NCBI GenBank assembly: GCA_943788815.1
Contig: CALSRS010000001.1
Span: 1,425,501-1,489,500 of the forward strand
DNA length: 64,000 nucleotides
Source of the DNA: an uncultured Gammaproteobacteria bacterium
Lineage (GTDB): Bacteria > Pseudomonadota > Gammaproteobacteria > Eutrophobiales > Eutrophobiaceae
Direction: 5' to 3'
Made by a program: the position numbers and the translations under genes. This document shows positions 3,153 through 28,633 of the stretch, in pieces. Every line of letters begins with the position of its first letter. The stretch's first letter is position 1. Below the pieces are notes generated by a model. That model did no database searches, was not told the DNA's origin, and saw only the letters and a list, made by a program, of their open reading frames with translations.

Positions 3153-4283
3153 ATGCTACTAATCAATAATGAAATTGTGGATAAGGTCCTCACCATGGGC
3201 GATACCATAGACGTGTTGGAAGATGCTTATACCCAGCATGTAAAAAGTGAATCAGTCTGCCGACCTCGAATTGATGTTCATATACCGACTGAAGATCCAA
3301 AGAAAGTTTATCGTTGGGGTTCCATGGAAGGTGGCTCCATGCATAATTATTTTGCTATCCGTATCAAGTCAGACATCTTATATGAAACCGAATACCAGGG
3401 AGCTATCACCCAGGAAAAATATTGCCGTGAACCAGGTACCTTTTGTGGTTTTATTATCTTGATGAATGTGAATAACGGTGAACCCCTGGCCATAATTAAT
3501 GACGGCGAGTTGCAACATATGCGCGTCGGGGCAGATGGTGGTCTTGGCGTCAAATATGCGGCACGCAACGATTGTCATACCGTGGGCATGTTGGGTTCCG
3601 GTGGCATGTCCCGTTCTCACATTGCCGCCTACATGCATGTACGTCCAGAAATAAAACGACTACAGGTATTCAGTCCTACCCGAACTAACTGTGAAGCCTA
3701 TGCAGATGAAGTCAGGGATAAATATAAACTTGAAGTGGTCGTTTGCGATAAACCTGAACAAGTTTACAAGGATGCCGATATCATTGCTGCCCTGACAGAC
3801 AGTGCAGTGCCGGTAATCGATCCCCAATTAATTAAGCCGGGCGACCATGTTATAAATATTGGTGGTGGTGGTTATATTGGTGGAGGTGGAACGCCAGGTA
3901 ATACCTTGCTTGATCGAATTAATCTTTACTTACGACTCGGTGACGCCACTGCCCCCTGGGGACGACCAGAGTTCGGTGTGTCTGATGAATTTCTAACCTA
4001 TGCAGCAGAACCCGAATCCATGCATAAGCTCGAACACAAGCACATTGGTAAAAAGGGACACGGCAGGTTACCGGTAGAAAATACGGTGACATTTGAGGAT
4101 ATTGTAACCAAAGGATTATCATCGGCCCGTACCAGTGATGATCAAATCTCCTATTCAGAACGAGGCAATATTCAAGGACAACAATTCTGGTCCGTAGCAG
4201 GTAAGGTTTATGAGAAAGCCATAGAACAGGGACTAGGACAGGAGATTCCTACAGATTGGTTTCTGCAAAACATCAGGAATTGA
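3153..4283 (+). CDS. OCD/mu-crystallin-family NAD(P)-binding protein 1
   Basis: 376-residue cytoplasmic protein of the ornithine cyclodeaminase/mu-crystallin superfamily. Known members are NAD(P)-dependent enzymes acting on amino or imino acids. The Rossmann dinucleotide motif GMLGSGGM sits at about residues 145-152. The preceding NDGELQHMRVGADGG replaces the usual DG..LT..RTAA signature but keeps its arginine (R124), and K72 in AIRIKSDI is the likely substrate-site lysine. Two close relatives lie at 7197 and 21617. All three are longer than typical OCDs (about 320-350) and end with a W/FFLQ(D/N)IR tail. RefSeq names similar long proteins tyramine oxidase subunit B, from memory. Substrate unknown. 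Monocistronic, with the tandem array directly at its stop codon. Confidence 0.85.
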   Translation: MLLINNEIVDKVLTMGDTIDVLEDAYTQHVKSESVCRPRIDVHIPTEDPKKVYRWGSMEGGSMHNYFAIRIKSDILYETEYQGAITQEKYCREPGTFCGFIILMNVNNGEPLAIINDGELQHMRVGADGGLGVKYAARNDCHTVGMLGSGGMSRSHIAAYMHVRPEIKRLQVFSPTRTNCEAYADEVRDKYKLEVVVCDKPEQVYKDADIIAALTDSAVPVIDPQLIKPGDHVINIGGGGYIGGGGTPGNTLLDRINLYLRLGDATAPWGRPEFGVSDEFLTYAAEPESMHKLEHKHIGKKGHGRLPVENTVTFEDIVTKGLSSARTSDDQISYSERGNIQGQQFWSVAGKVYEKAIEQGLGQEIPTDWFLQNIRN

Positions 4284-4372
4284 GTGTGAGGTGTGAGGTG
4301 TGAGGTGTGAGGTGTGAGGTGTGAGGTGTGAGGTGTGAGGTGTGAGGTGTGAGGTGTGAGGTGTGAGGTGTG
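4284..4372. repeat. Tandem array of 7-bp unit GTGTGAG
   Basis: Twelve perfect copies of GTGTGAG from 4284 to 4367 plus a partial unit GTGTG. The array starts immediately after the stop codon of the OCD-like gene. A short-unit array of this purity is prone to slippage. Confidence 0.97.
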
Positions 4373-4424
4373 GGCAAGATTGTGTTGCCCTACATACAGA
4401 CTTAGTCAAGTGATGCTACAACTC

Positions 4425-4690
4425 CGTCATTCCCGCGCAGGCGGGAATCCAGTACAAAAATGTTCACCACCCGTATCGTGGACTTTAATGGATTGGATAC
4501 TGGCTTCCGCCAGTATGACGTTTTATCAATTTACGTTAGGCCCGTCATGCTGGTGTATACCAGCATCAAAATTATTTGATGAACATCCCTGAGAACGTAT
4601 TCTTATTTACTGGATTCCCGCATTTACTAGAAAATGCTCCTGCATTTCTAGTACTTCCGCCGTCCATGGCGGTCGCGCGGGAATGACGGG
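4425..4690. repeat. Cluster of four short palindromic elements
   Basis: Elements at 4425-4453 (CGTCATTCCCGCG...CGGGAATCCAG), 4495-4520 (GGATACTGGC...GCCAGTATGACG), 4543-4567 (CGTCATGCTGG...CCAGCATC) and a long imperfect one at 4610-4690 (CTGGATTCCCGC...GCGGGAATGACGG). Flanks CGTCAT and ATCCAG recur while the stem sequence changes. This is REP-like intergenic DNA. The gap 4373-4717 holds no credible gene. Confidence 0.85.
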
Positions 4691-4717
4691 GGAGAAGCGG
4701 AAAAGGCAAAGAAATGA

Positions 4718-5203
4718 TTAAATAATACCCGGTAACCAGCGTTTTACCTGTTTCATGTATTCCTCATATTCTGAACCAAACATTTCCATCAACCTCGCTT
4801 CGTCTCTTCCGACCCGAGGTTGATACCATATCAAGGTAAATATCAGCAATAATACTGCGACGATAGATTGTAAGGTGATGGCAATTCCGGTGATGTAGAT
4901 AAAGTGACCAAGGTACATGGGGTTACGGGTATAGGAATAAATGCCGGTAGTGACCAGGTTTTCTGGTGGGTTTTTTAGGCCCGGTCCTCCTCTGCCGATT
5001 CTGTTACGGTATTTTCCAGAAAATTTGAATTGCAGGTACCCCCAAAGCATAAACGGAGTACCCCAAAGTACCAATGACAATTCTCCTTTTTGAATTAGCA
5101 GTTCTATTAAAAATATAACGCCCGGGTAGAGAATAAAAGTTCGGTTTGAATTACTACGAAACCATTCTGCGACAGGATTCTTTTTTATAACTTCACCATT
5201 CAT
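4718..5203 (-). CDS. Isoprenylcysteine carboxyl methyltransferase-like membrane protein
   Basis: 161-residue integral membrane protein of the ICMT/phospholipid-methyltransferase superfamily, which methylates small or lipid substrates with S-adenosylmethionine. The family signature is visible: TGIYSYTRNPMYLGH at residues 86-100, and a C-terminal pair of acidic and basic residues around GSEYEEYMKQVKRWLP. Hydrophobic segments lie near 23-37, 43-58 and 98-125. Length fits the family. It lies 15 bases downstream of the EutA-family gene and is probably cotranscribed with it. Substrate unknown; a link to the EutA gene is only contextual. Confidence 0.8.
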   Translation of the reverse strand: MNGEVIKKNPVAEWFRSNSNRTFILYPGVIFLIELLIQKGELSLVLWGTPFMLWGYLQFKFSGKYRNRIGRGGPGLKNPPENLVTTGIYSYTRNPMYLGHFIYITGIAITLQSIVAVLLLIFTLIWYQPRVGRDEARLMEMFGSEYEEYMKQVKRWLPGII

Positions 5204-5218
5204 AATTGAATAACCATA

Positions 5219-6829
5219 TCAGCTGTCTTGCTCGGACTGTAAGCGTTCGAATCGCTTGTTATCACCGGACACGTCCTTAAATACCAGTGACTTAATCATT
5301 ACTGGTACGGTATTGGAAGGTTCACGCAACCTGCCGAGATCAATATAGTCAAAATTCCAGAGTGCTACTCCGTCAATCACTAAAACCGGATTATCGATAT
5401 TGAGATCTTCTTTTAGAATTCGACCAAGATTTAATGCTATATCAGCATCCAGAATGATAAATAGCGGTTTCCCTCGTTTGATTCGTTCTTCCAATCCAGC
5501 TTTTATGCCGTCTGCAAAGGCGCGAATTCGTTTGTAATCTGGATGCCCTTCCCAGTGAAAGGAATGAACAAGGTCGGCATCTGATCCTGTGAGATCAAAA
5601 TTTTGCATTGTTTTTTGAATTTCATTTGCCAACACTTGTTTATCAAATGTTTCCGTAAATTCAAAAGGGGTATGCACAACCTGCAAGTTTCTTCTAGGTA
5701 GTAGTGATTTTGAATCGCTTATATAACCTGTATTGCCGCTAAGCTGAGTAGAATATTCTGATGCTCCCAGTACGGTAGCTCGGATACCCTGACTGTCTTG
5801 ATTTACTTTCCAGGGCAATCTCCCATCTGCAATACATTCACGGACTGCTTCTCCAAGGTACGGTCCAAGATCGCCAAAATCTCTGGGTTCCCTCTCGTAG
5901 ATAAATTCTGAAACACCCCCGGAAAAAACCACGCTATTAATATGTTCGAAACTATTAACAGGATCTGTTAAATATAAATTTTTTGTATTGTCAGACAAGG
6001 TATTGTCAGTAAGCGCATGGACCAGATCATTGGTCATGGATCTGGCAATCGTTGTTAGATCATCACTGGAAACCGAATCACCTAAATTTAGCGTAAGCCC
6101 TGCCCGCTTTGCATGTGACTGACCTGCTGGTTCTATACGCACCACCTCATCCTTGTCATTTACAGCAAGCAATCTACCACCGATATGTAAGGCGGCTGTC
6201 GCCTGAATTAAACCGTTGTCGATAATACTTAACTTGGTAGTTCCACCACCTATATCAATATTCAAGATACGCTCTTTTTCATCATGAGATAACTGCACAG
6301 CACCTGAACCATGAGCCGCCAACATGGCTTCCATGTGATGACCCGCGGCAACACATACCAACTCACCACATTTCTCTGACAGGATCTGGCCTATCCTCTC
6401 TGAATTGGCCCGCCTTAATGCCTCACCTGTCAATATCACGACACCCGTATCGATGTCATCCGGATTTATTCTCGCCTGGTTATATGCCAGGTCCACGATT
6501 TCTCCCAGGGCCTTTGCATCTATCAAAGTTTCACTTTCATAGGGAGTCAGGCTGACGGGAGATTCATACCATGTCTCACGTGACACCACCAGGTAGCGAC
6601 TTGAGAGATCCACAGATTGTCTTTTTAAATGCAGATGTGAAAAGAGGATTTGTGTTCCAGCAGAACCAATATCAATCCCGACACTGGTCAGGGTTACATT
6701 TTCTCTTTGCCACAAGGGATGGTCTTCGATGTTCCCTTCAAAATCGGGGCCAACATAATATCCATCATGGGTATGCCCCGGATCAGGATCATAATAATGA
6801 CTATGTTCTTTTTCAGTATCGTGGGTCAT
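5219..6829 (-). CDS. eutA: EutA-family actin-fold reactivase 1
   Basis: 536 residues matching EutA, the ATP-dependent chaperone that swaps damaged cobalamin in ethanolamine ammonia-lyase. Visible actin/Hsp70-fold motifs are the phosphate-1 loop GIDIGSAGTQ (51-60), LTGEA (133-137), the EutA-type AAGHHMEAMLAAHGSGA (161-177) and phosphate-2 IDIGGGTTK (191-199). The N-terminus carries about 40 extra residues rich in His, Asp and Tyr (EHSHYYDPDPGHTHDGYY), a possible metal-binding tail. No eutB or eutC is present in the window, so the client enzyme is unknown. It is followed by the small methyltransferase and is divergent from OCD-like gene 2 and the TTT genes at 7197-11640. A paralogue lies at 25116-26624, again beside OCD and TTT genes. 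Confidence 0.85.
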   Translation of the reverse strand: MTHDTEKEHSHYYDPDPGHTHDGYYVGPDFEGNIEDHPLWQRENVTLTSVGIDIGSAGTQILFSHLHLKRQSVDLSSRYLVVSRETWYESPVSLTPYESETLIDAKALGEIVDLAYNQARINPDDIDTGVVILTGEALRRANSERIGQILSEKCGELVCVAAGHHMEAMLAAHGSGAVQLSHDEKERILNIDIGGGTTKLSIIDNGLIQATAALHIGGRLLAVNDKDEVVRIEPAGQSHAKRAGLTLNLGDSVSSDDLTTIARSMTNDLVHALTDNTLSDNTKNLYLTDPVNSFEHINSVVFSGGVSEFIYEREPRDFGDLGPYLGEAVRECIADGRLPWKVNQDSQGIRATVLGASEYSTQLSGNTGYISDSKSLLPRRNLQVVHTPFEFTETFDKQVLANEIQKTMQNFDLTGSDADLVHSFHWEGHPDYKRIRAFADGIKAGLEERIKRGKPLFIILDADIALNLGRILKEDLNIDNPVLVIDGVALWNFDYIDLGRLREPSNTVPVMIKSLVFKDVSGDNKRFERLQSEQDS

Positions 6830-7196: not shown

Positions 7197-8333
7197 ATGT
7201 ATATAATTAACAATGACCTGGTTAACCAGGTCCTGACGATGGACATGTGTATAGAAGCACAGGATAAGGCATTTCAAAAAATTCCTACGGGTGGCGCAAT
7301 TCATCGCCCCAGGATAGACATGTACGTCCCCTGTCAACGTGACGATGGCTATTTTCGATGGGGCAGTATGGAAGGGGCGAATGATGGATACTTCGCTATC
7401 CGCATGAAATCCGACATCATGCACTGGCCTAAAGATGAAAATGGAAACTGGACCGAGAAAAAATACTGCCGTGAACCTGGAACCTATTGTGGACTCATCC
7501 TGTTAATTTCCACAGAAAATGCCGAACCTCTGGCGTTCATTAATGATGGCAACCTGCAGCACATGCGTGTTGGTGGTGGTGCTGGTCTTGGGGTCAAATA
7601 CCTTTCCAGAGAAGACAGTCATGTTGTGGGTATGTTGGGTTCTGGCGGTATGGCCAGGACCTTCCTTGAAGCCTTTGCCTGTGTTCGCGACATACAACAA
7701 TGCAGGGTCTATTCCCCTACCGCCGTAAATCGTGAAACCTATGCCGAAGAAATGTCAGACAAACTGGGGATAGATGTGATTGCGGTAAATTCCGCAAAAG
7801 AGGCTGTAGCGGGTTGCGACATCCTGTCATCGTGTACCGACTCCATGCAACCAGTCTATGATGGCGACTGGCTGGAACCGGGCATGCATGTAACCAATCT
7901 CGGGCGACGAGAGATGCCCGACTCAGTCATTAACAAGTTCGATGTGGTCATCCGTCAGGGAACGGCAGGGCTACAAATGAAAATGACTGAAAGGTTTCAG
8001 GCAGAACGCGGACTATCTCCCGCGGCATTTATCGCTGGTTCTGTCGAAGAAATGAAGCGGATTCCTGAGAAAAACCCGCAGCCGGGATTCGGTGGTGATG
8101 ACCCTGATTTTCAAGACAGGGGTAAAGGCAGCGACAAACCAGATTTCGCCGATCTCGTCTCTGGTAAGGCCGAAGGCAGGACCAGTCCTGAGCAAATCAC
8201 CTTTTATCGAAACGTTGGAAACCAGGGACTGCAATTCTCTGCGGTTGGGGCAGTTGTTTATGAAAAAATTAAGGAAATGGGCCTGGGACAGGAAATCCCC
8301 ACAGACTGGTTTTTACAGGATATTCGAGACTAA
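7197..8333 (+). CDS. OCD/mu-crystallin-family NAD(P)-binding protein 2
   Basis: 378 residues, closely related to the genes at 3153 and 21617. The dinucleotide motif GMLGSGGMAR is at 145-154, preceded by NDGNLQHMRVGGGAG (117-131), and RWGSMEG and YFAIRMKSD mark the substrate half. The C-terminal WFLQDIRD is identical to that of copy 3. It is the first gene of a plus-strand unit with tctC, tctA and tctB, 126 bases upstream of tctC. Placement with a carboxylate importer suggests that it acts on the imported compound or its imine (inference). Length exceeds typical ornithine cyclodeaminase by about 30-50 residues, so simple ornithine cyclodeamination is unlikely. Confidence 0.85.
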   Translation: MYIINNDLVNQVLTMDMCIEAQDKAFQKIPTGGAIHRPRIDMYVPCQRDDGYFRWGSMEGANDGYFAIRMKSDIMHWPKDENGNWTEKKYCREPGTYCGLILLISTENAEPLAFINDGNLQHMRVGGGAGLGVKYLSREDSHVVGMLGSGGMARTFLEAFACVRDIQQCRVYSPTAVNRETYAEEMSDKLGIDVIAVNSAKEAVAGCDILSSCTDSMQPVYDGDWLEPGMHVTNLGRREMPDSVINKFDVVIRQGTAGLQMKMTERFQAERGLSPAAFIAGSVEEMKRIPEKNPQPGFGGDDPDFQDRGKGSDKPDFADLVSGKAEGRTSPEQITFYRNVGNQGLQFSAVGAVVYEKIKEMGLGQEIPTDWFLQDIRD

Positions 8334-8459: not shown

Positions 8460-9554
8460 ATGAATAAAAAAATCATCATCTCGTTATCCGTATTTGGAGC
8501 ATTACTGGCTGTCATCATAGTGGCAGGATTGATGGTCAATAAACCCACTCAACAGGGTGCTAACACCGCTGGTGGTTCTGACGCAGTCGTCGATCCCAAT
8601 GCCGCGGCAGCATTTTATGATGGTAAGGTGATTAAATGGGTTATTCCATATAGCCCTGGTGGTGGATATGATGAATATGTCCGTTTGATTGCACCATTTA
8701 TGGAAAAATATACAGGTGCCCGGATAGATGTATTAAACCTGCCTGGTGCAGGGGGGATGCGTGGAGTAAACGAACTGTATGCATCACCAAATAATGGGCT
8801 GACTGTTGGAATCATCAACGGCAGTGCGTTGATTACCAGTCAGCTCGCCGGTATTAAAGGGGCTGATTATGAGCTCGATAAATTTGAATACATTGGTCGT
8901 ATTATTGCGGATCCCCGCGTCCTGGTTCTTTCAAGTAAAAGTAATATTAAAGCATTTGATGATATTTTAAATTCTGAGGAACTGATAAAGATTGGTGCCA
9001 CGGGTCTGGGTGGCAGTACCTACGTTGACGCAGTAGTTGCCAAGGAGGCCTTCAACATGAATGTAGAAATTATCCATGGGTTTGATAGTTCCCCAGTTAT
9101 CAGGCAATCCATGCTACGTGGAAATATTATTGGCACATGGGGTTCATGGGGTAGTGCTGAAGATGGCGTAGAATCGGGTATGGAGTTTATACTTATTCAG
9201 AGTGGCAAAGAACGCCTGGCAGACCTTGCAGATGTACCCACCGTTTTTGAATACATAGATAAAACAGATGACCCGGAACGCACCAGGGCCATTCTTACAG
9301 CCTGGGATGCGTTGATTCAGGTGGGTCGCTCTGTTGCGGCACCTCCAGGTACAGCTGCAGACAAGATTGCATTTTTAAGGGAAGCATTTAACAAGTCCCT
9401 GCATGATCCAGAACTTTTACAAAAGGCGGAACAGGCTGGCAGACCATTTGATTACGCCACTGGTGAAGACATGACAAATATAACAATGAGTGCTACCAAG
9501 ATGCCCGAAGAAATAGAACAATTGTTTATACTGGCAATTCGCGGTCAACTTTAG
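8460..9554 (+). CDS. tctC: TTT system substrate-binding protein (TctC/Bug family)
   Basis: 364-residue periplasmic receptor of a tripartite tricarboxylate transporter. An N-terminal hydrophobic segment (residues 4-27) has no obvious cleavage site or lipobox, so it may be membrane-anchored. Family features are visible: WVIPYSPGGGYDEYVR in the first strand-turn, INVLN/LPGAGG-type loop (LNLPGAGGMRGVNELY), and later RADLADVPTVFEY and AAPPGTAADKI. The ribosome site GGGGAAGG precedes the ATG. It lies upstream of tctA and tctB in the usual CAB order. Such proteins bind carboxylates; the ligand cannot be predicted. Its counterpart in cassette B (22784-23878) is a lipoprotein. Confidence 0.9.
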   Translation: MNKKIIISLSVFGALLAVIIVAGLMVNKPTQQGANTAGGSDAVVDPNAAAAFYDGKVIKWVIPYSPGGGYDEYVRLIAPFMEKYTGARIDVLNLPGAGGMRGVNELYASPNNGLTVGIINGSALITSQLAGIKGADYELDKFEYIGRIIADPRVLVLSSKSNIKAFDDILNSEELIKIGATGLGGSTYVDAVVAKEAFNMNVEIIHGFDSSPVIRQSMLRGNIIGTWGSWGSAEDGVESGMEFILIQSGKERLADLADVPTVFEYIDKTDDPERTRAILTAWDALIQVGRSVAAPPGTAADKIAFLREAFNKSLHDPELLQKAEQAGRPFDYATGEDMTNITMSATKMPEEIEQLFILAIRGQL

Positions 9555-9616: not shown

Positions 9617-11131
9617 ATGGGTATTCTCGAAGGACTGGGGATTGGTTTTTTTGCATCAATTAGTCCCTCCGTACTGCCATATTTATTTGTTGGGTCATTA
9701 TTTGGTCTCGTAGTCGGGATAATTCCTGGACTCAGTGGCCATTTCGCAATTGCCATGGCGATACCATTTTTATATACCATGGAACCAGCCACGGGAATTG
9801 CCTTCTTACTGGCAGCCCATGCAGCAGTCGCGCAGGGAGGAGGGTTGACTTCTATACTCTTCAGCACGCCTGGAACCGGTCAGAATGCTGCAACACTGCT
9901 TGATGGCCCTCCCATGAGAAATAACGGCCAGGCAGGGGTTGCCGTTGGGGCTGCAATGATGGCCTGCCTGATGGGTGCAACTTTTGGGTCCGTTACCCTT
10001 GCAGCATTGTTGCCTGCATTACAACAGGTTGTTTTATTGTTTGGTCCTCCTGAAATCTTTGTCCTGGTGATCCTGGCTTTAACATTTGTTGCTGCACTGG
10101 AAGAAGGTGATCTGGTTAAGAGCATCATGTCTGCCCTCGCTGGCCTGTTATTTGCAATGGTAGGTCTGGACAATGTCACGAATCAGGAACGATTTACCTT
10201 CGGCTTACTTGAACTTCGAGACGGCCTGGAACTGGTTCCCGTTATTCTAGGGCTATTTGCTGTAGCCGAAATGTTTGACCTCTGGGTAAAAGGCGGTTCC
10301 CTGGTTGGTGAAGCAAAAAACAGCAGCCTGTCTGCCAAAGAAACCCAGAAACAAATTTTTCAGGGTATATTTGAAACTTTAAAACGCTGGTGGCTGGTCA
10401 TGCGTTGCAGCGCGATTGGAACGGCAATGGGATTGATACCTGGTCTTGGTAGCGCACCAGCAGCATTCGTTGCCTATGGTCATGCCAGACAATCTTCCAA
10501 GACCAAAGAAACCTTTGGTAAGGGAAATATTGAGGGAGTCATAGGCCCGGAATCAGCTAATAATGCGGTGGAAGGTGGAGCCCTGGCATCAACAGTAGCA
10601 TTTGGAATACCTGGCAGTTCATCCATGGCCATCCTGCTGGCTGGGCTTTTCATACTGGGTGTAGAGACCGGTCCAAAGATGCTCACTGAACATGTGGACT
10701 ATGTGTTTATCATGATTTTTACGATAATTTTTGGCAACCTGATCGGGACCGTATTAGGCATGTTTCTGGTGAACCCATTAACACGTGCCTCTGGATTGAG
10801 GTCCAGCCTGCTGGTACCGGTATTAATCTGCATCATATTTACCGGGGCTTATGCTGTAAATCACTCCTGGTTTGATATCGGTATTGCGGCGATTTTCGGA
10901 ATACTTGGTTATCTTATGAAAGAATTGAAATACTCACGAGCTGCTATGTTAATAGGATTTGTGCTCGGATTCGCCATTGAGAAAAACCTCTATCTTGCCG
11001 TGCAACTTTCAGGACCATACTTTATTCTCGACCCAGTGCCTCTAACATTGGCAATAATCACCTTTGGATTCCTGGCTTATAACATCTGGGGCATAATCCG
11101 TGACAAAAAACAAAACAAGCAAAAAGAGTAA
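9617..11131 (+). CDS. tctA: TTT system large permease TctA
   Basis: 504-residue inner-membrane permease with about 12 hydrophobic segments, the usual size for TctA. Family motifs: GIIPGLSGHFAIAMAIPFLY near residues 37-57, TSILFSTPGTGQNAATLLDG near 93-112, and GLIPGLGSAPAAF with GVIGPESANNAVEGGALAS and FGIPGSSSMAILL in the second half, reflecting the internal duplication. It lies 62 bases after tctC and 20 before tctB. It moves the carboxylate delivered by TctC using the ion gradient. Paralogue at 27113-28633. Confidence 0.95.
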   Translation: MGILEGLGIGFFASISPSVLPYLFVGSLFGLVVGIIPGLSGHFAIAMAIPFLYTMEPATGIAFLLAAHAAVAQGGGLTSILFSTPGTGQNAATLLDGPPMRNNGQAGVAVGAAMMACLMGATFGSVTLAALLPALQQVVLLFGPPEIFVLVILALTFVAALEEGDLVKSIMSALAGLLFAMVGLDNVTNQERFTFGLLELRDGLELVPVILGLFAVAEMFDLWVKGGSLVGEAKNSSLSAKETQKQIFQGIFETLKRWWLVMRCSAIGTAMGLIPGLGSAPAAFVAYGHARQSSKTKETFGKGNIEGVIGPESANNAVEGGALASTVAFGIPGSSSMAILLAGLFILGVETGPKMLTEHVDYVFIMIFTIIFGNLIGTVLGMFLVNPLTRASGLRSSLLVPVLICIIFTGAYAVNHSWFDIGIAAIFGILGYLMKELKYSRAAMLIGFVLGFAIEKNLYLAVQLSGPYFILDPVPLTLAIITFGFLAYNIWGIIRDKKQNKQKE

Positions 11132-11151: not shown

Positions 11152-11640
11152 ATGTCTAATAATAAGAAAACTCTCGAAATCTGTTTCACAATTTTTATCA
11201 CACTTATGGTGGTAGCTGCTTTTATTACGGCACTGACATACGACTTCGTATCTGCCAGAGCACCTCTAGTTATCCTGGTGCCGCTATTGATACTCACCGG
11301 TTTCCAGCTTAAAAAAGGATTGAAGGAAGCCCATGGTGTAGATGTAATGGGTGACCTTAAAAAGACTTTAAGTTTTCAGAATAAGGAATTCAACGGAATT
11401 GCCAGCTTTTTTGGCTGGATGATATTTTTACTAATACTGATTTTTGTGACAGGACATTACGTTGGTATGGCAGTATTCATATTTTTCCTGATGAATCTGG
11501 TTGCAGAGGAAAAACTCTCGCTCTCTCTTATTGTTTGCGTTGTCGTGACTCTGGTTATCTATATGCTGTTTGAGCACCTGTTTAATATTGAGCTTTACAG
11601 GGGGTTGATATACAGGATCTGGATGGGTTACGGTTTCTAA
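11152..11640 (+). CDS. tctB: TTT system small membrane subunit TctB
   Basis: 162 residues with four hydrophobic stretches (about 11-27, 34-48, 80-105 and 118-140), the expected topology for TctB, the poorly conserved small subunit of TTT transporters. The identification rests on size, topology and position directly after tctA. No terminator was seen after it, although the next gene is on the opposite strand. Confidence 0.85.
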   Translation: MSNNKKTLEICFTIFITLMVVAAFITALTYDFVSARAPLVILVPLLILTGFQLKKGLKEAHGVDVMGDLKKTLSFQNKEFNGIASFFGWMIFLLILIFVTGHYVGMAVFIFFLMNLVAEEKLSLSLIVCVVVTLVIYMLFEHLFNIELYRGLIYRIWMGYGF

Positions 11641-14902: not shown

Positions 14903-14905
14903 TCA

Positions 14906-15212
14906 TCTTTCTCCAATGGATAAATAAAAAAACTATAAATTTTTTTATCCGATAGTGTTATCCCGAGTGCGGGAGATATAATTTCATAATTATCGAATTA
15001 TTGATTCTAATTATGATATATAAGTGTGTGACCTGTAACAGGGGATGTCAACAAGCTAAAAAATTAAAAACTCCTTAATAATCTGCATATTAGCTGAGTC
15101 ATTGTGAAAATAATGTGCAGTCAAAAAACTGTGAAATTTACACTACTATTGACATGGTTTTACACATTCAGGAGACTCAAATACAAATAGTTATATTAAA
15201 GAGGTCGAGATT
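14906..15212. promoter_or_regulatory. Divergent promoter region, split amidohydrolase 1 / alpha-beta hydrolase
   Basis: AT-rich 307-base gap between divergent genes, with no coding signal. A consensus-like TTGACA lies at 15149-15154, without a convincing -10 box at the right distance. The near-palindrome GTGAAATTTACAC at 15131-15143 could be an operator. Both are weak, by-eye assignments. Confidence 0.35.
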
Positions 15213-19425: not shown

Positions 19426-19690
19426 AGGCTCTCTCCAATCCATCATTATTCTTTAGGCTCGTAAGTGACATGCGCAAAAAGGAGGGAGATCGTAAAAATC
19501 TCTATTTTTATCGATATACAGCGTAAATCCCCCCTACTACACGCTCTAGTGTGTGACCAGAGATATGGGTTGTCAACCGCTTTTAAGGACTAATCAAAGC
19601 ATAGAATATTCATGGTTATATCACTTTGATTTAAAAGTATTATTTACATAATTTTTGGTAGCTGAGAATCTAATCTGTAGATATATATAA

Positions 19691-20617: not shown

Positions 20618-21613
20618 TTATCTGTCTTCACTAGTGCCATGAAGGTAGTTGGACATGTCGGGTTTAATATTATTAACAAACAGTTCCTCGATCTGCATAT
20701 GTCTTTCAGTCAATCCCTGTTCATATAGATAACGAAACAGAGTTTCGAGGGTAGGTCGACTTCCCTCTATCGAGTAATCCCAGAAATCTTCACCCATCAA
20801 TTCGCGGGTGTCTTCAAGTTCATTTACCACCCAGGGCAATGTTGTAGTCAGTGCATCGGTATTATAAATATATCTATAGCTTCTTATTTTTGCCTCGGCA
20901 AATGCCTTGTAAAGACTGATTGCCAACCATGGGCACTTTTCGTACAACGCAGTTTTAATGACCAGGGTATGCATAATAGGAAACACACCCGTTCGCTTGT
21001 AATAGTCGATTTCTACGCGTTTATAATCAGGGAAAAGACGCTTAATATTGCTATTTTTTCTCTTCAGTGTTTCTGGCATCATCACTGATATCAATGCATC
21101 TATCTCTCCATTTTCTAAAAGGACTTCGGGGTTATCACTCCCAAATTTTTCAACAGTTATGCCGGTTGGCAATGTAAATTCCTGCACTGCTGTTCCGGTT
21201 AACCAGTTCATATCCTGGGGCTGGATACCGTATTCATCCTGTAATAATCCACGTACCCAGACTGCGGCTGTCATTTGATAATCGCCTACACCTATCCTTT
21301 TTCCCTTTAGATCGCCTGGAGATCGTATAGCTGATTTTGTGTTTATATATATGCCAGAATGACGAAAGGTACGAGATGGAAAAACAGGAATTGCGATAAA
21401 TCGCTCATCGCACCTGGAGCGAAGCATCGTATAGGAGGATAGAGATAATTCAGAGACATCAAACTCATTATTATTCAACATTCGCCAGAAGGTTTCTCCC
21501 GGCACCATAGGGAGAAAATTCAGGTTCACACCTTCAGGTTTAACAGTACCGTCAAATAAGCCACGAGTACGGTCGTAAAGCCCACAGGCGAGAGTGACAT
21601 CAAGCTTTGACAT
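20618..21613 (-). CDS. 4,5-dihydroxyphthalate decarboxylase-like / NMT1-fold protein
   Basis: 331 residues resembling 4,5-dihydroxyphthalate decarboxylase (Pht5 type) and its periplasmic-binding-protein relatives. The start LDVTLACGLYDRTRGLFDGTV and the following PEGVNLNFLP are typical of that group. Further marks are SELSLSSYTMLRSR, SPGDLKGKRIGVGDYQMTAAVW and the tail NIKPDMSNYLHG. There is no signal peptide, so it acts in the cytoplasm, unlike true ABC binding proteins. It starts three bases after the OCD-like gene's stop (TGA GGG ATG), which is strong coupling. It may decarboxylate a pathway acid. No ABC permease is nearby. Confidence 0.75.
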   Translation of the reverse strand: MSKLDVTLACGLYDRTRGLFDGTVKPEGVNLNFLPMVPGETFWRMLNNNEFDVSELSLSSYTMLRSRCDERFIAIPVFPSRTFRHSGIYINTKSAIRSPGDLKGKRIGVGDYQMTAAVWVRGLLQDEYGIQPQDMNWLTGTAVQEFTLPTGITVEKFGSDNPEVLLENGEIDALISVMMPETLKRKNSNIKRLFPDYKRVEIDYYKRTGVFPIMHTLVIKTALYEKCPWLAISLYKAFAEAKIRSYRYIYNTDALTTTLPWVVNELEDTRELMGEDFWDYSIEGSRPTLETLFRYLYEQGLTERHMQIEELFVNNIKPDMSNYLHGTSEDR

Positions 21614-21616
21614 CCC

Positions 21617-22738
21617 TCAGTCCCGGATATCCTGTAAAAACCATTCAGTAGGTAATTGCTTGCCCAGTTGCCTGGCAAGTGCTGCCTCATAGACCAGGCC
21701 ACTGACAGCGGCAAACTGTAAACCTTGATTCCCTGCATTTATATATGCAGTAATCTGCTCATCATTTGTCCTGCCTGATATCCGCCCATGGGCCAGATCA
21801 TTAAAATCAGGAAAATCCCTTCTAAATAATGTCTGGTGTTGTTCAGCGGGCAAGCGCTGCATTTCCGATTCTGAACCAGCGATATATGCCAGTGGACTAT
21901 TACCGATACCAGACTTTATTCTTGGATCATCATCTCCATTTCCCGCCACGGCACCCGCCACCCCCTGTCTTATGACTATGTCCGCTTTTTCAAATATGTC
22001 CTCAGTTAATTCAAAGGGGCTAAGATTGACGATATGCATACCAGGCATTAACCATTCTTTTTTAACGGTTGGAACCATACTACTGGTACAGGTGGCAAGA
22101 ATATCAACACCATCCACGGCAGCTTCAGGACTATCAACTGCAATGACAGATATACCATGTAGTTTTTTCATCTCCTTGGCATAAAGTTTTCTGTTATCAG
22201 GATTGGGACTATAGACTTTGACCTCCTTGATGTCTCTCACCTTGCAGAATGCATCCAGATAAGTACGCGCCATTCCACCAGAACCAATTATCCCAACCTT
22301 GTCTGCATCCTTTCTGGCCAAATATTTGGCACCCAGACCTGCACCTCCACCTACCCGCATATGCTGTAAATGTCCGTCATTAATAAAAGCAAGAGGCTCC
22401 CCATTACGGGTGGAAAATACCATTATCAAACCACAGTAGGTACCAGGGTTTACACAATATTTATCTTCACGTTCGAGCCCGCTGAGTTCATCACTAGACC
22501 AGGTAATCACATCAGATTTCATACGAATAGCAAAATAGGGGCCAGGCACACTGGTCGCACCTTCCATGGTACCCCACCGCCAGTAGCCATCTTCACGTTC
22601 GCAGGGGACATACATATCTATACGGGGGCGATGAACAGAGCTGCCATCGTCGATTCCAAGAAATGAGGCTTCCTGAACCTTGATACAATCCGCCATATCC
22701 AGCAAGGTCATGACGTCATTATTATTGATCACAAGCAT
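21617..22738 (-). CDS. OCD/mu-crystallin-family NAD(P)-binding protein 3
   Basis: 373 residues, third member of the long OCD-like set. Motifs: HRPRIDMYVPCERED (36-50), YFAIRMKSD, NDGHLQHMRVGGGAG (120-134) and IIGSGGMART (150-159), ending WFLQDIRD. The R in QHMRV and the lysine in RMKSD occupy the substrate positions expected for OCDs. It lies between tctC and the decarboxylase-like gene in the eight-gene operon, so its substrate is probably imported by that TTT system or produced by the cupin or EutA client enzyme (inference). Confidence 0.87.
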   Translation of the reverse strand: MLVINNNDVMTLLDMADCIKVQEASFLGIDDGSSVHRPRIDMYVPCEREDGYWRWGTMEGATSVPGPYFAIRMKSDVITWSSDELSGLEREDKYCVNPGTYCGLIMVFSTRNGEPLAFINDGHLQHMRVGGGAGLGAKYLARKDADKVGIIGSGGMARTYLDAFCKVRDIKEVKVYSPNPDNRKLYAKEMKKLHGISVIAVDSPEAAVDGVDILATCTSSMVPTVKKEWLMPGMHIVNLSPFELTEDIFEKADIVIRQGVAGAVAGNGDDDPRIKSGIGNSPLAYIAGSESEMQRLPAEQHQTLFRRDFPDFNDLAHGRISGRTNDEQITAYINAGNQGLQFAAVSGLVYEAALARQLGKQLPTEWFLQDIRD

Positions 22739-22783: not shown

Positions 22784-23878
22784 CTATCTAATAAATTTTT
22801 CCGTGAGCACATGCTTGACTTCCTGTACGCGCTCATCAGACAGGCCAGCAAAGATATTCCTTACCAACTGTTCCTGATCCTCTGCTGACATATAATTAAT
22901 TGGACGCTTTCTCTGTGTTGCCATGGTGATAAATTCAGGATCTGTGAGTATCTCATGTAATTTACCGCGCAAATAGGTGACTTTTTCAGTAGCTACGTCT
23001 CCATGGGTCACAAATGTTCTTCCTACCTCGGTGACACTAAATCTGAAATCTACCCAGCTTTCACCTTCCTGACTCATATCGGCCAGCTCAAAAATTGTAG
23101 GTACGTCAGGAAAGAACGTCTGTTCCCGGTTGCGGGAAAATGTCGCAACAGGAACCATTCCTTCATCACCACTACCAACATAATTAATAGCGGAACTGTT
23201 TGATACGACGATGCCGTCTACTTCACCTCTTACTACCGCCAGCGCAACCTCACTACTACCGGAATATCCGGTTACCACACCAAATTGTTCCGGCGTCAGT
23301 GCAAGTGCCTCTGCCATGGCAGACTCAGCATCCGAAATATTGTCCGTTAGTCCATTCGCACCCCAGGTTGAGCCATCTTGTTTAATGGTATTCATTACCT
23401 CATCAAAAGAACGCTCGGGATTTGCTTTACTCCAAAGAACCATAGGAGTATCAATTTGCGCGCGACCCAACCAGTTTAATTCCATGATATCGAAGCGAGT
23501 ACCTGGTCTATCCGTAATCTGAGCAAGAACCGCTGATTCACCACCCAGTAACATAATACTCAAGCCATCAGGGCGTCCCTGCACAAGACGGTTCAAAGCC
23601 AATAGTCCGCCGCCGCCAGGCTGGTTTTCTACAACCACGGTTCCACCTGTTCGCTGGGCGAGTTCATTGCCAATCATTCTTGCATATTCATCAAAGCCAC
23701 CGCCTGGATTAAAACCAACAATGATATGCAAGACTTCATTTTTATAAAACGATGCAGGATCTACAGACTGTGTCTCATCATCACCTGAACCACCGCTGCA
23801 TCCGCTTAAGCTGATAACAATACCAAGAAAAACTAATAGTAGCTTACTGGTATTAAATCTATCAAAAAGTAGATTCAT
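22784..23878 (-). CDS. tctC: TTT system substrate-binding lipoprotein (TctC/Bug family)
   Basis: 364 residues. Lipobox LSGC at 24-27 follows a hydrophobic stretch and is followed by SGGSGDD, so the mature protein is probably a lipoprotein. Family motifs: LHIIVGFNPGGGFDEYARM, ENQPGGGGLLALNRL and DVPTIFELADMS. Such receptors bind carboxylates for TctAB. Gene order is unusual, because tctA and tctB lie at the head of the operon while tctC is the fifth gene, after eutA and the cupin. The counterpart in cassette A is anchored differently. Confidence 0.92.
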   Translation of the reverse strand: MNLLFDRFNTSKLLLVFLGIVISLSGCSGGSGDDETQSVDPASFYKNEVLHIIVGFNPGGGFDEYARMIGNELAQRTGGTVVVENQPGGGGLLALNRLVQGRPDGLSIMLLGGESAVLAQITDRPGTRFDIMELNWLGRAQIDTPMVLWSKANPERSFDEVMNTIKQDGSTWGANGLTDNISDAESAMAEALALTPEQFGVVTGYSGSSEVALAVVRGEVDGIVVSNSSAINYVGSGDEGMVPVATFSRNREQTFFPDVPTIFELADMSQEGESWVDFRFSVTEVGRTFVTHGDVATEKVTYLRGKLHEILTDPEFITMATQRKRPINYMSAEDQEQLVRNIFAGLSDERVQEVKHVLTEKFIR

Positions 23879-23918: not shown

Positions 23919-25028
23919 TCAGGCAATATCAAACTTATCCATCTTTGGATCTACATTATTTTTATTCATTTCTTCCAACCAGATTTTGTGAATCCTTGGG
24001 TCCTGATCTTCATATTCCAGTTGATCTCCACCTTCCTTGATACTGGTAGATACTGCTCCTTTTTCGCCAGGCTTCAGACCTATTAACGACCGACGTTTAT
24101 CTTTCGTTAAGGGGTAGCGTAATCCTCCGACACCAGTTGCCAAATATCTTGCTGGGTTCTGGCTGGTATTAAAGTGCTGATGGAACTGTCTGTCTGCCGG
24201 TGGAAAAACTACACCATGCTTCCAGTCTATCCTTAAAAAGTCTTCATCTCCCTCAAACCATAACAGCGAGTAACCATGTCCTGTAACACACATGACGTGA
24301 AAACCGGGGCCATGACGATGTCCCTTCTTATAGGTACCGACAGGCATTTCCGAAATATGTGCGTGCATAGAGCTGTCAGCTAGAACAAACATTACGTTAG
24401 TACCTCCCGCACCTCTATCTCCCCAGGAGTGCAATTCAATACTGGCAAGATCCGGTACGAAATTTGTCTCCCACATATGATTACCGGGTTTAACGGTAAT
24501 CAGATCACCTTCACCAGAAAAATACTTTTCCTTGCCACTTCTTTCTTCAAAGTCAAAATCATTGTCAAAAATAAACGCTTCATTATGAAATGTATTCATC
24601 ACCAGAGGCAGGCCTGTAGTGCTGACTATCAATGCCCTATCCTGGCCACTACCGTTAAAATGACGATGCCTGGTATTTAATGGGACTGCAAATAGACTCC
24701 TGGGCCCCCATTCAAACGTACGCTTTTCACCATTGGGAAGTTCAACCTGAGTGCTACCTCTGCCGTCTAATACATAATAGACATCTTCGTAGAGGTGTTT
24801 CATGGGAGCTGTTGAAGCGCCAGGCCCAATCTCAAACAGAAGCATGTTACTAAAATCACACCTTCCCTTAAGATGAACCGCAGCACCCTTGCAATCATGC
24901 CTGGCCCAGTCCTGCACAGGTACGTTGAAGAGGTCTACACCGTAATCTTCGGTGACTGGCAGGCCTTCTTTTTCCACCCAGTCCAAATATGAATCTATTC
25001 CGTATCGGGGGGCTTCCTGATCACTCAT
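23919..25028 (-). CDS. Two-domain cupin protein A
   Basis: 369-residue cytoplasmic bicupin. The first cupin (about 55-150, with VYYVLDGRGSTQVELPNG) lacks a full metal triad. The second (about 230-320) has KKGHRHGPGFH and, later, FHQHFN, giving several metal ligands. Related to gentisate-dioxygenase-like cupins; some relatives carry the RefSeq label ethanolamine ammonia lyase-activating protein (from memory), which would fit the adjacent eutA-like gene. It sits between eutA and tctC in the operon. Similar proteins lie at 40876 and 44297. It could be a ring-cleaving dioxygenase, an isomerase or an accessory protein; activity is not assignable. Confidence 0.82.
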   Translation of the reverse strand: MSDQEAPRYGIDSYLDWVEKEGLPVTEDYGVDLFNVPVQDWARHDCKGAAVHLKGRCDFSNMLLFEIGPGASTAPMKHLYEDVYYVLDGRGSTQVELPNGEKRTFEWGPRSLFAVPLNTRHRHFNGSGQDRALIVSTTGLPLVMNTFHNEAFIFDNDFDFEERSGKEKYFSGEGDLITVKPGNHMWETNFVPDLASIELHSWGDRGAGGTNVMFVLADSSMHAHISEMPVGTYKKGHRHGPGFHVMCVTGHGYSLLWFEGDEDFLRIDWKHGVVFPPADRQFHQHFNTSQNPARYLATGVGGLRYPLTKDKRRSLIGLKPGEKGAVSTSIKEGGDQLEYEDQDPRIHKIWLEEMNKNNVDPKMDKFDIA

Positions 25029-25115
25029 TTCTAACTTCTCCTGATAAATTTATTATTAATACCAGTTACATAGCTTACCACAATCATTTTTCAGACACCT
25101 TTATATCAAAGGAAC

Positions 25116-26624
25116 TCATGAAAATAACAGGGATTTTATTACTACCGGCACAACTCCGGGCGGGTCAATTAATTCGCCTACGTCCACATAATCCAGTTCC
25201 TGTAATTGCACCCCATCCACAGATAATAACTTTGCTGGAAAATGATGTTCACGTATCAGGATATTTCCCATAATATTTGCGATATCACCATCTATCATGA
25301 GCAACAATGGCTGAGTTCTGGCGCCATCCTTTAGCACCGCAGTACATATCCCTTTTGCCATGGCATTCAGACGTGAATATTCAGGATCTCCCTGCCAGCT
25401 AAATGCAATGGCAATACAGGTATCGATGGGTTTATCTATTCTATTAATTCCATCACGTATTGCTTTACTAATAATGTTTGCATCAATCGTATTTGACAGG
25501 TCAACATGCAATTGAACTACAGGAATGTTGTGGACTGGTAAAATATCAACATGAGATAAATAGATAGTCTTACCACTTACCTGTACCGTAAATTGAGAAG
25601 CACCAATGACTGTTGCCCGTATCCCCTGCCCGGGATCCATGATTTCAAGGTCAACATTATTTTTAAGTTGATTATTTAAACTGCTAACCAGCAAAGGGGC
25701 AATATCACCAAACTCTTTCATCTCTCCGTGCAGAAGGTATTCAGATACACCTCCGGAAAATGTTAATCCTTGAGGTTCCACATGGCGTTCCAGATCTTCT
25801 GTTAACTGTAATGCCTTGCCTAAATTATCAGTTGCCCCTGATTTAATAAAATCAATGACTACATCTACCAGACGTCCTACTATTTTTTCTCTGATAACTA
25901 CATTATTTAGTGATTCAGGATCTACAGGCAACTCCAGCTCTTTTGCGACAAGATGAGCTGAGTCATCGACCCGGTTCCAGGTACCATTTTCATCTTTTGC
26001 TAATAATCGGCCTCCTACTGCAAAGGCGCAGACACTTAATACTTTCCCCTTATCTATTAATGCCAGCTTGGTTGTGCCTCCTCCAATATCCACATGTAAG
26101 ATGCAAATATTTTTTTCTTTTGAAAGTGCAACTGCTCCAGAACCATGAGCTGCCAGGGTACATTCCAATTTATGTCCTGCTGTCGCGCATACGAACTTAC
26201 CGGCTTCTTCTGCGAAAAGATCAGCTATTGCACGAGCATTTTTTCTCTTTATGGCTTCGCCAGTCAGTATGACTGCACCACTATCAATATCACTTCTGGT
26301 GAAACCCGCTTGCTGATAAGACTTATGAATAAAGTCTTCCAGCATGGTGATATCTATCGTCCCATCTCCAAGGAAGGGGGTAAGCATGATAGGTGAACGA
26401 TGAATAACTTCTCTTCGTGTTACGACAAAACGGCTGGAAAGGGATTGGGTACTTCTTTGCAATCGAATTTTTGCAAATAATAAATGCGAGGTTGAACTGC
26501 CTATATCTATCCCCGCTGTTGTTAATTCCACTGTCTCCTGCCGCCAAATAGAATCAGCAGCGGCCTTAATATCATCTTCATGAATATGTCCATGCAGTAG
26601 ACCGTGACCTTCGTGTAATAACAT
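25116..26624 (-). CDS. eutA: EutA-family actin-fold reactivase 2
   Basis: 502 residues, paralogue of 5219-6829. Phosphate-1 GIDIGSSTSH (38-47), LTGEAIKRKNA, CATAGHKLECTLAAHGSGA and phosphate-2 VDIGGGTTKLAL are all present, as in EutA, which restores cobalamin-dependent ethanolamine ammonia-lyase. The N-terminus is again His-rich (HEGHGLLHGHIHEDD). No cobalamin enzyme is encoded nearby. It lies 23 bases after tctB and 87 before the cupin in the cassette B operon. Conservation of nucleotide-binding residues argues for an active ATPase. The client could be a lyase elsewhere in the genome or an operon product. Confidence 0.86.
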   Translation of the reverse strand: MLLHEGHGLLHGHIHEDDIKAAADSIWRQETVELTTAGIDIGSSTSHLLFAKIRLQRSTQSLSSRFVVTRREVIHRSPIMLTPFLGDGTIDITMLEDFIHKSYQQAGFTRSDIDSGAVILTGEAIKRKNARAIADLFAEEAGKFVCATAGHKLECTLAAHGSGAVALSKEKNICILHVDIGGGTTKLALIDKGKVLSVCAFAVGGRLLAKDENGTWNRVDDSAHLVAKELELPVDPESLNNVVIREKIVGRLVDVVIDFIKSGATDNLGKALQLTEDLERHVEPQGLTFSGGVSEYLLHGEMKEFGDIAPLLVSSLNNQLKNNVDLEIMDPGQGIRATVIGASQFTVQVSGKTIYLSHVDILPVHNIPVVQLHVDLSNTIDANIISKAIRDGINRIDKPIDTCIAIAFSWQGDPEYSRLNAMAKGICTAVLKDGARTQPLLLMIDGDIANIMGNILIREHHFPAKLLSVDGVQLQELDYVDVGELIDPPGVVPVVIKSLLFS

Positions 26625-26647
26625 TTAATTACTCCTTCAATTATTAC

Positions 26648-27112
26648 CTAGCGGGTCCAAAGTGGTTCTATAGGCAAAGAGACACCTAGTAGTGTATAAA
26701 AACCTATATAGACAATTATGAACACAACTAAAACTGACAGCATGCGCTGCCACCATGGCAGCCTGTGATAACTAGTATAAGCAAGGGTGAATAACATGAG
26801 ACCCATTAGCAAACCCAGTATGTAACAAACAGGATAAACACTGGCCATCCAAAGCAGACGTTTTACCAGGCTGGATCGTGGATCATCGCTAAAGCCAATT
26901 GATTCCCCCTCTTTTTCAAGTGCCTCCACAGGGCTTATAAATGCCCGGACTAGCAGCCATAAAGTACTAAGCATTAGCAGAACACCTGCCATCCATGGAA
27001 ACAGGATCACATTAGGACGATATTCCCAGACAAACTGCCCCATCAACAATAACACCAAGGGAAAGATGAAAAAGATGATTGCAATGACAATATTTCCTAA
27101 CCTGCCTTTCAT
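26648..27112 (-). CDS. tctB: TTT system small membrane subunit TctB
   Basis: 154 residues with four predicted membrane segments (about 9-28, 35-56, 88-112 and 120-143), the topology of TctB. It starts directly at the stop of tctA (TAA ATG with no gap), which indicates translational coupling. Sequence similarity to the cassette A TctB is low, as is normal for this subunit; the call rests on topology and position. Confidence 0.85.
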   Translation of the reverse strand: MKGRLGNIVIAIIFFIFPLVLLLMGQFVWEYRPNVILFPWMAGVLLMLSTLWLLVRAFISPVEALEKEGESIGFSDDPRSSLVKRLLWMASVYPVCYILGLLMGLMLFTLAYTSYHRLPWWQRMLSVLVVFIIVYIGFYTLLGVSLPIEPLWTR

Positions 27113-28633
27113 TTATGCCTCACCTGAATCTGATATTTGTGAGTCTCGTTTTTTTTTATTTTTAAAATAACGAAAGACAGGCATCAATATGCCAATCAGA
27201 ATTAAAAAAGAAATCACTAGCGAAATAGGTCGCATAAAAAACATAGGACCATAGGTGTTTAATGAAATAAATAGATAACTTTCCAACAATGGCGCAAGGA
27301 CAAAGCCCAGCAATAGTGCCGGCCTTGAATAACCATAATACTTCATGCCTGTTCCAAGGATACCAAATACAAATACGAACAGGACATCGGCAAAATGATT
27401 TTCAGTGGCATAAGCACCAACCACTACCAATGCCACCAATATAGGTGACAGAAAATGTCCGGGGATCAGTGTTATTTTTGCAAGATGCTTTGCAATTAAT
27501 ATGAGTGACAGTGCGCCGATGATGTTTGCTCCTATCAATACAAAAGCAAGACCATAGGCCATATCCATATTTTCGGTGAGAAACTCAGGACCAGGTTGGA
27601 GTCCAAGTAATAAAAATCCGCCCAATAGCAGAACCATAGCACTGCTACCTGGAACACCAAATGCCAATGTTGGTACCAATGCACCACCATCCTTGGCGTT
27701 ATTGGCCCCTTCCGGCCCAATCACACCTTCAATTGATCCCTTGCCAAAACGATGTGGTCGTTTTGAAATTTGTTTGGCCGCACCATAGGTTACAAATGGC
27801 GCTGTCTCACTTCCTACTCCGGGGATCAATCCCAGAAATACTCCCAGGATTGATGAACGTATCAAGACCCATTTTCTCGCAAAGACTGCCCAGACACCTC
27901 GCCATACCTGTTTACTAGTTATCTTAAGATTTGATCCATCAGTTCGACTGCTCGCAATACTTCTGCCAGACATCAACTCTAATAGCTCGGGTATGGCAAA
28001 CATACCCAAAGCCAGCGGGATTAATCTCACACCATCAAGCAGGTAATCAATATCCATCCAAAAACGTGGAACACCAGAGATACTATGATACCCAAAGGTC
28101 CCAAGAAATAATCCCAGGGCACCCGCTGCCAGCCCTTTCAAAGGTGAGCCGCCGCCCAGCAAGGCTAGATAACTCAAACCCAGTAATGCAAGAAAAAAAG
28201 TTTCTGGTGAACCAAACGACATGACTACTGGCCTGACCATAGGTAACAGAAAAATCAAAACGATTCCGCCGATCAAGCCTCCCAGACTGGAGGATGCCAA
28301 TGCTGCGCCCAGGGCATAACCTGCTCGACCTCGTTTTGCCAGTGCATAACCATCGATAATGGTTGCTGAATTACTTACTGATCCTGGGATTCCAAGCAAG
28401 ATAGAGGTAACCGATCCACCGGTTGCCACCACAGCATGACAGCTTAACAAGAATGCAAGGCCAACCACCGGTTCCATGCCATATACCAAAGGTAATAATA
28501 CAGCAAGCGCTACAAGACCTCCCAGACCCGGCAAAATCCCAAAAATCAGTCCTACTGGCACCGCTGCTGCGATGACGATTAAGATTTCAATACGGGCAAA
28601 AATTAAGATACCTTGCCAGAGATCTGACCCCAT
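27113..28633 (-). CDS. tctA: TTT system large permease TctA
   Basis: 506-residue polytopic permease, first gene of the cassette B operon. Motifs: GILPGLGGLVALAVLLPLVY near 32-51, VTSILLGIPGSVSNSATIIDG, LIPGVGSETAPFVTYGAAKQ, GVIGPEGANNAKDGGALVPT and FGVPGSSAMVLLLGG. The GxxPGxGG repeats in each half are diagnostic of TctA. It imports a carboxylate with TctB and the lipoprotein TctC. Divergent from the asparaginase homologue, with a palindrome at 28741-28765 between them. Confidence 0.95.
   Translation of the reverse strand: MGSDLWQGILIFARIEILIVIAAAVPVGLIFGILPGLGGLVALAVLLPLVYGMEPVVGLAFLLSCHAVVATGGSVTSILLGIPGSVSNSATIIDGYALAKRGRAGYALGAALASSSLGGLIGGIVLIFLLPMVRPVVMSFGSPETFFLALLGLSYLALLGGGSPLKGLAAGALGLFLGTFGYHSISGVPRFWMDIDYLLDGVRLIPLALGMFAIPELLELMSGRSIASSRTDGSNLKITSKQVWRGVWAVFARKWVLIRSSILGVFLGLIPGVGSETAPFVTYGAAKQISKRPHRFGKGSIEGVIGPEGANNAKDGGALVPTLAFGVPGSSAMVLLLGGFLLLGLQPGPEFLTENMDMAYGLAFVLIGANIIGALSLILIAKHLAKITLIPGHFLSPILVALVVVGAYATENHFADVLFVFVFGILGTGMKYYGYSRPALLLGFVLAPLLESYLFISLNTYGPMFFMRPISLVISFLILIGILMPVFRYFKNKKKRDSQISDSGEA

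Follow-up and report, generated by a model that had tools for sequence, protein, structure and literature searches.

The window analysed here is a 64,000 nt stretch of contig 1 (bases 1,425,501-1,489,500) of a 3.23 Mb gammaproteobacterial genome. It carries two gene cassettes, A and B, each encoding a full-length EutA-family protein, and in cassette B the EutA gene lies beside the gene of a bicupin metalloenzyme; this pairing of EutA and bicupin is the subject of the present report. The proteins of the window were assigned by Pfam domain matches, with equivalog cut-offs taken from NCBIfam.

All genes of cassette B are on the minus strand. In coordinate order they encode an EamA-family transporter (19691-20596; PF00892, E 2e-50), a 4,5-dihydroxyphthalate-decarboxylase-family protein (20618-21613; Pfam name Phosphonate-bd), the long protein OCD_B of the ornithine cyclodeaminase (OCD)/mu-crystallin family (21617-22738; PF02423, 1e-37), a TctC-type solute-binding protein (22784-23878; PF03401, 1e-16), the bicupin Cupin_B (23919-25028; PF07883), its partner EutA_B, an ATPase of the acetate and sugar kinase/Hsp70/actin (ASKHA) superfamily (25116-26624; PF06277, 7e-113), a TctB subunit (26648-27112; PF07331, 2e-8) and a TctA permease (27113-28633; PF01970, 2e-125). 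Judged by its sequence, the product of 20618-21613 is a homologue of 4,5-dihydroxyphthalate decarboxylase, matching PDB entry 9jp7 over residues 1-313 of 331 (E 1e-73).

Cassette A is arranged on both strands. OCD_A1, a long OCD-family protein of 376 aa (3153-4283, plus; PF02423, 7e-27), is followed by a PEMT/ICMT-type membrane methyltransferase (4718-5203, minus; PF04191, 2e-12), the ASKHA ATPase EutA_A (5219-6829, minus; PF06277, 2e-115), a second long OCD-family protein, OCD_A2 (7197-8333, plus; PF02423, 9e-35), and TctC (8460-9554, plus; PF03401, 2e-6), TctA (9617-11131, plus; PF01970, 1e-120) and TctB (11152-11640, plus; PF07331, 2e-5), the last scoring slightly below the curated cut-off and standing in the position expected of it. 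Both cassettes thus combine a EutA-family protein, long OCD-family proteins and TctA, TctB and TctC, encoded together as a tripartite tricarboxylate transporter (TTT). Two congeners keep the TctA-TctB-EutA-cupin-TctC-OCD arrangement of cassette B, and four keep OCD_A1-PEMT-EutA_A-OCD_A2, so these arrangements are not due to chance. A third EutA (EutA_C) with its own bicupin (Cupin_C) lies outside the window, at locus L006, 17 kb upstream of its first base. The first-pass annotation had named EutA, a long OCD-like protein and TctABC in both cassettes, and Pfam bore out each of these parts; the key partner, the bicupin at 23919-25028, was not named there, nor were the bicupins at 40876-41991 and 44297-45469 linked to the cassettes.

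Relatives of the window EutAs were collected by an alignment-based scan, and the best 80 of its 501 matches were taken as related EutA loci. They represent at least five phyla, and come from Alpha-, Beta- and Gammaproteobacteria and from isolates or metagenome-assembled genomes assigned to Myxococcota, Binatota, Chloroflexota (including SAR202) and Actinomycetota. A bicupin gene lies directly beside EutA in 66 of the 80. A survey of 297 Hyphomicrobiales genomes, a less biased test than the selected loci, found this EutA clade and the bicupin in an identical set of seven genomes, and neither of them alone; an eighth EutA match (158 bits) is a EutB-linked EutA that had already been seen (G258). 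If genomes were independent, the chance of identical sets of 6 in 296 (the seed genome omitted) would be about 1 in 10^12, a figure that gives only a scale since they are not. Among 72,556 plasmid records the bicupin occurs in four, each time with this EutA adjoining; the four other plasmid EutA records with annotation have EutBC beside EutA, and in one lacking annotation (L135) EutB and EutC were found by BLAST. With adjacency in 66 of 80 loci and presence in the same seven of 297 genomes, EutA and bicupin are well supported as a conserved unit, and a chance neighbourhood of the two genes is ruled out.

The partners are also matched by type. Among adjacent pairs, the bicupin beside a B-type EutA is Cupin_B in 68 cases and Cupin_D-like in four; EutA_C stands with Cupin_C in 7/7, and EutA_A with Cupin_D in 3/4. 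Three Rhizobiales carry a tandem of distinct paralogue pairs, Cupin_B-EutA_B-Cupin_C-EutA_C, in which the two EutAs within one locus are 39% identical and the two bicupins 28%; between like pairs of different genomes the identities are 78% and 88-92%. Pairwise distances of EutA and bicupin correlate over 80 pairs (Mantel r = 0.72, partly from shared species history), the largest value in 2,000 permutations being 0.25. The largest expansion seen is in Oxalobacteraceae bacterium CAVE-383 (G292; loci L148 and L155), where a 4.1 Mb genome without EutB has six EutA-family and five bicupin matches. In Phyllobacterium zundukense the gene order is TTT, a thiamine pyrophosphate (TPP)-dependent enzyme, an NAD(P)-dependent oxidoreductase, the bicupin (annotated as hypothetical), EutA and a LysR regulator. 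A literature search, thin on subscription journals, returned no paper on a EutA-bicupin pair, which is weak evidence of novelty; a paper on paracetamol mentions ethanolamine ammonia-lyase and makes no link between EutA and a cupin (PMC9420511).

EutA_A and EutA_B match PF06277 over profile positions 2-475, and EutA is by far their best-scoring family. Their best scores against the NCBIfam equivalog for the EutA reactivating factor, 325.1 and 316 bits, lie below its cut-off of at least 598. In a tree of 110 EutA sequences, built by a quick method and with some long branches, 102 including EutA_A, EutA_B and EutA_C form a single clade with support 100, outside which fall the EutBC-linked EutAs of E. 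coli, Cetobacterium, Acetoanaerobium and haloarchaea. All 102 clade members have S43 and K186, where the seven EutBC-linked proteins (7/7) have T and N. The window EutAs are therefore a separate branch, and its ATP site is kept: the motifs are DIGSSTSH, DIGGGTTK and FSGGVSE in EutA_B and EutA_C, and DIGSAGTQ, DIGGGTTK and FSGGVSE in EutA_A. The predicted model of EutA_B (predicted local distance difference test score, pLDDT, 83) has an ASKHA fold.

EutA proper was found in the own genus only among 53 genomes of the host family, apart from one fragment (G031). It is rare in the host phylum, with three of 199 genomes including the own, and in both of the others it is EutB-linked. A scan of viral sequences found no relative, and a scan of the genome contig collection with EutA_B as a single sequence gave no match, the relatives being found by the alignment-based scan. 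Contig 3 has a short match to EutA, of 27.5 bits over only 45 profile positions, which recurs in most genomes and is probably an FtsA-type protein. A decayed eut operon is ruled out by the lack of EutBC, the separate clade and the intact ATP site. The EutA of the ectoine literature (PMC4996985) shares the name and is unrelated.

The AlphaFold model of Cupin_B is a confident two-cupin fold (pLDDT 92.6). Gentisate and salicylate dioxygenases head its list of structural matches, the best being gentisate 1,2-dioxygenase 3bu7 (Z 21.5, root-mean-square deviation, rmsd, 5.1 over 268 residues), which is also matched by profile. The predicted fold is thus of the gentisate/salicylate 1,2-dioxygenase type, and the bicupin may carry out dioxygenase chemistry. 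Within the curated ring-cleaving cupin families the only match was to 5-aminosalicylate 1,2-dioxygenase, at 24 bits against a cut-off of 650. In the second (C-terminal) cupin, H237, H239, H283 and H285 are invariant in two alignments, of 72 and of 33 rows. By analogy with cupin enzymology, such a site, made of histidines only and lacking the usual Glu, would fit a dioxygenase with Fe(II) better than it would a decarboxylase with Mn. Cupin_E begins with a hydrophobic stretch resembling a secretion signal, unlike the other bicupins; export would be unusual for the family.

The neighbours of EutA point to a class of substrates. Dihydroxyphthalate-decarboxylase-type proteins occur in 34 of the 80 loci, some as weaker and shorter matches, and Rieske proteins in 16, and the Rieske protein upstream of the window, at L006, resembles phthalate 4,5-dioxygenase 7fhr (E 2e-84). 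UbiD decarboxylases, RidA, Fer2 reductases and FAA hydrolases are other close neighbours, as are regulators of the MarR, IclR and LysR families. Because of the Rieske, decarboxylase and UbiD neighbours, and because TTT systems are a known route of phthalate uptake (PMC13040137), the substrates are probably aromatic carboxylates, with no single compound indicated. Two genes of the same island may belong to the system: a TPP-dependent enzyme of the acetolactate synthase/benzoylformate decarboxylase superfamily (35195-37102, minus; PF02775/PF02776), which also adjoins the EutA-bicupin pair in Phyllobacterium, and a class II aldolase family protein (37582-38325, plus; PF00596, 1e-32), which resembles the 3,4-dihydroxyphthalate decarboxylase PhtC weakly (NF053537, 79.5 bits against a cut-off of 200) and has relatives in 12 of the 80 loci.

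Taken together, these results suggest a catabolic system with the EutA-family actin-like ATPase and the bicupin at its core, in which the ATPase maintains or reactivates the bicupin, and of which the two cassettes and the upstream third locus would be paralogous copies; we give this reading an even chance of being right. The TTT transporters would import a carboxylate, most likely aromatic or derived from an aromatic compound, which phthalate-type Rieske oxygenases and decarboxylases (of the dihydroxyphthalate-decarboxylase type, or UbiD) would prepare for the bicupin. The bicupin would perform a key step, probably dependent on O2, and the EutA-like protein would spend ATP on maintaining it, for instance by opening the bicupin so that an oxidised metal or a dead-end ligand can leave. 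True EutA acts as a reactivase on ethanolamine ammonia-lyase, a vitamin-B12 enzyme, and an action of the EutA-like protein on the bicupin is proposed by analogy with it. In some lineages the long OCD protein would probably reduce or deaminate an imine-type or keto intermediate. The broader idea, that such ATP-driven reactivases form a widespread and undescribed group of EutA-family chaperones for O2-dependent bicupins of aromatic-acid breakdown, with several pairs per genome and each ATPase specific for its bicupin, is put forward tentatively, as something that may well prove wrong.

Several observations weigh against the proposed system. In fourteen of the 80 loci EutA lacks a bicupin neighbour. 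Contig ends account for some of these, but five loci from a group rich in Rhodospirillaceae (L097, L105, L114, L115, L122) and one from SAR202 (L124) are complete and show none over 10 kb. EutA_A of the window genus likewise stands alone, and the nearest unpaired bicupin, Cupin_D (40876-41991, minus), is 34 kb away; orthologues of Cupin_D adjoin an A-type EutA in two Hyphomicrobiales (G356 and G584; 74% and 71% identity), and relatives of Cupin_E (44297-45469, minus) are found at the EutA_A loci L155 and L156. Finally, an oxalate decarboxylase matches the Cupin_B model with Z 20.5, a tie with the 21.5 of gentisate dioxygenase, which makes dioxygenase chemistry no more than a candidate.

A different gene set was seen at L097, L103, L105, L115 and L122, mostly from Rhodospirillaceae. 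The gene ahead of EutA there encodes about 492 aa, a length that would fit UbiD. NicO, RidA, a dihydroxyphthalate-decarboxylase-type gene and an OCD of shorter length accompany EutA, and a bicupin is missing over 10 kb. The EutA of the Rhodospirillaceae-rich loci without a bicupin possibly has a different client.

The EutA-like protein might instead be an ATP-using enzyme, or a structural ASKHA ATPase, with a step of its own beside the bicupin, such as carboxylate activation or an energised reduction, in the manner of hydantoinase, acetate kinase or the HgdC/BadF-type activators. The fold comparison of EutA_B is compatible with this, returning ASKHA members of many functions, led by exopolyphosphatase-like proteins (Z 18.7, rmsd 3.9 over 263), with HgdC-type activators further down (Z 15.0, rmsd 4.2 over 223), and so is the clade-specific change of N to K after the second phosphate loop. 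The full-length match to EutA, the best family by far, speaks for a reactivase, however, and its one-to-one pairing with just one family of metalloenzymes looks like a relationship to a client. A step of its own for the ATPase is unlikely, though worth keeping in view.

It was also proposed, in the first-pass annotation, that EutA, OCD and TTT form the functional unit, with TTT importing an amino or hydroxy acid, a reactivated lyase acting on it and the OCD enzyme finishing the sequence. OCD_A1, OCD_A2 and OCD_B have the PF02423 domain and belong to a long subfamily of 365-378 aa with a Rossmann region, a glycine motif of the GSGGMAR type and conserved Arg and Lys residues near the N-terminus; they remain at or below 132 bits against the NCBIfam equivalogs of characterised OCD proteins (cut-offs 266-500). 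In favour of the unit, EutA_A stands between OCD_A1 and OCD_A2 in each of the five congeneric genomes, and OCD_A1 orthologues lie near EutA in Sulfuritalea (L072), Sterolibacterium (L086) and SAR202 (L124). OCD_A1 is also present in two Burkholderiales genomes that have EutA, and a PEMT-type methyltransferase adjoins it in one Burkholderiales locus (L149). Across the 80 loci, however, OCD-family genes are near EutA in only 12, TctA in 22 and TctC in 34, compared with 66 for the bicupin; cassette A has no TTT beside it in three of the five congeneric genomes; and five of the eight Burkholderiales genomes with a strong long-OCD match encode an OCD_A2-type protein and lack this EutA branch altogether. 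The suggested neighbourhood check, carried out over 10 kb, upheld a EutA that recurs without EutBC (0/80) and repeatedly has TTT and OCD genes in its surroundings. The three together did not hold as the conserved unit: no lyase was found, and the conserved core is EutA and bicupin. Because OCD_A2-type proteins occur in those five Burkholderiales, OCD is a lineage-specific accessory and not a defining part; the reduction or deamination foreseen for it may still apply to an imine-type intermediate. We consider the three-part unit improbable. On plasmids OCD_A2 matched nothing closer than OCDs of about 31% identity or less, so the long subfamily is not represented on known plasmids.

To our knowledge, the only role studied for EutA is with a B12 enzyme. 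Neither EutB nor EutC lies within 10 kb of EutA in any of the 80 loci. EutB is absent from 11 of the 13 EutA-bearing genomes tested (the own genome, all four congeners and six of eight distant ones), and diol/glycerol dehydratase from 12 of 13 (all five of the genus and seven of the eight others). No B12-binding family is among the 25 commonest families of 103 close neighbours, other B12 enzymes such as mutases not having been searched for. Despite this precedent and the NicO- and HupE-type Ni/Co transporters in the window and a few loci, these absences, together with the exact co-occurrence with the bicupin, make it very improbable that the client of EutA is still an adenosylcobalamin enzyme, with its gene at another place in the genome.

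Further TTT sets, amidohydrolases, TonB receptors and Rieske oxygenases are encoded in the window and in the upstream stretches that were read, and with so many transport and catabolic genes the region is best described as a large catabolic island. Two paralogous amidohydrolases (12732-14773 and 17255-19446, minus) are each split into two genes with a 4-base overlap, and the second gene of each pair has its own hydrophobic, signal-like start. A relative is a single gene of 742 aa in L039, and a similar pair of N- and C-terminal parts lies at 1-1152 of L138. As the split site is identical in the two paralogues and a similar pair exists in L138, this suggests a real two-part enzyme and no sequencing error. 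A TonB-dependent receptor in L006 is also split, into a plug half (13490-14851) and a barrel half (14900-16252), perhaps by a frameshift or because the gene is decaying. A gene for a pyrroloquinoline quinone (PQQ)-type propeller is located between Cupin_D and Cupin_E (42250-44013), and a block of MoxR-AAA, VWA and DUF58 genes just past them (45605-50495).

If the pairing is one of reactivase and client, the role of the EutA family widens from vitamin-B12 enzymes to another class of metalloenzyme, a known repair protein seeming to have gained a new client, and the survival of ring-cleaving cupins after inactivation becomes testable with a defined pair of genes. The system is found in soil rhizobia, Burkholderiales, marine Rhodospirillaceae, Actinomycetota and SAR202, some of them groups tied to the degradation of recalcitrant organic matter. 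Members of the branch, for instance WP_262291242.1 from Phyllobacterium, are labelled ethanolamine ammonia-lyase reactivating factor in public databases, a label that is misleading for the branch, as most of the genomes tested do not have ethanolamine ammonia-lyase.

Compared with known systems, the long OCD proteins share the Rossmann region, the GSGGMAR-type motif and the Arg and Lys with the OCD/mu-crystallin family (alanine dehydrogenase, pyrroline-2-carboxylate reductase), and differ in their length, in many invariant residues of their own and in scoring below the equivalog cut-offs. Phthalate catabolic clusters resemble the EutA loci in their Rieske and decarboxylase families and TTT transporters, all of which recur here; we know of none with EutA or such a bicupin. 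The window EutAs differ from those of ethanolamine utilisation in having no EutB or EutC nearby, in their own clade and signature residues and in their sub-equivalog scores, and resemble the ethanolamine ammonia-lyase reactivase in the full-length family match, the ASKHA ATP motifs and the predicted ASKHA fold. The bicupin is only 9-16% identical to gentisate/salicylate 1,2-dioxygenases, has its invariant His set in the C-terminal cupin and is matched about equally by oxalate decarboxylases; with the gentisate/salicylate enzymes it shares the two cupin domains, a Z of about 21, the profile match to 3bu7 and a gene context of aromatic acids.

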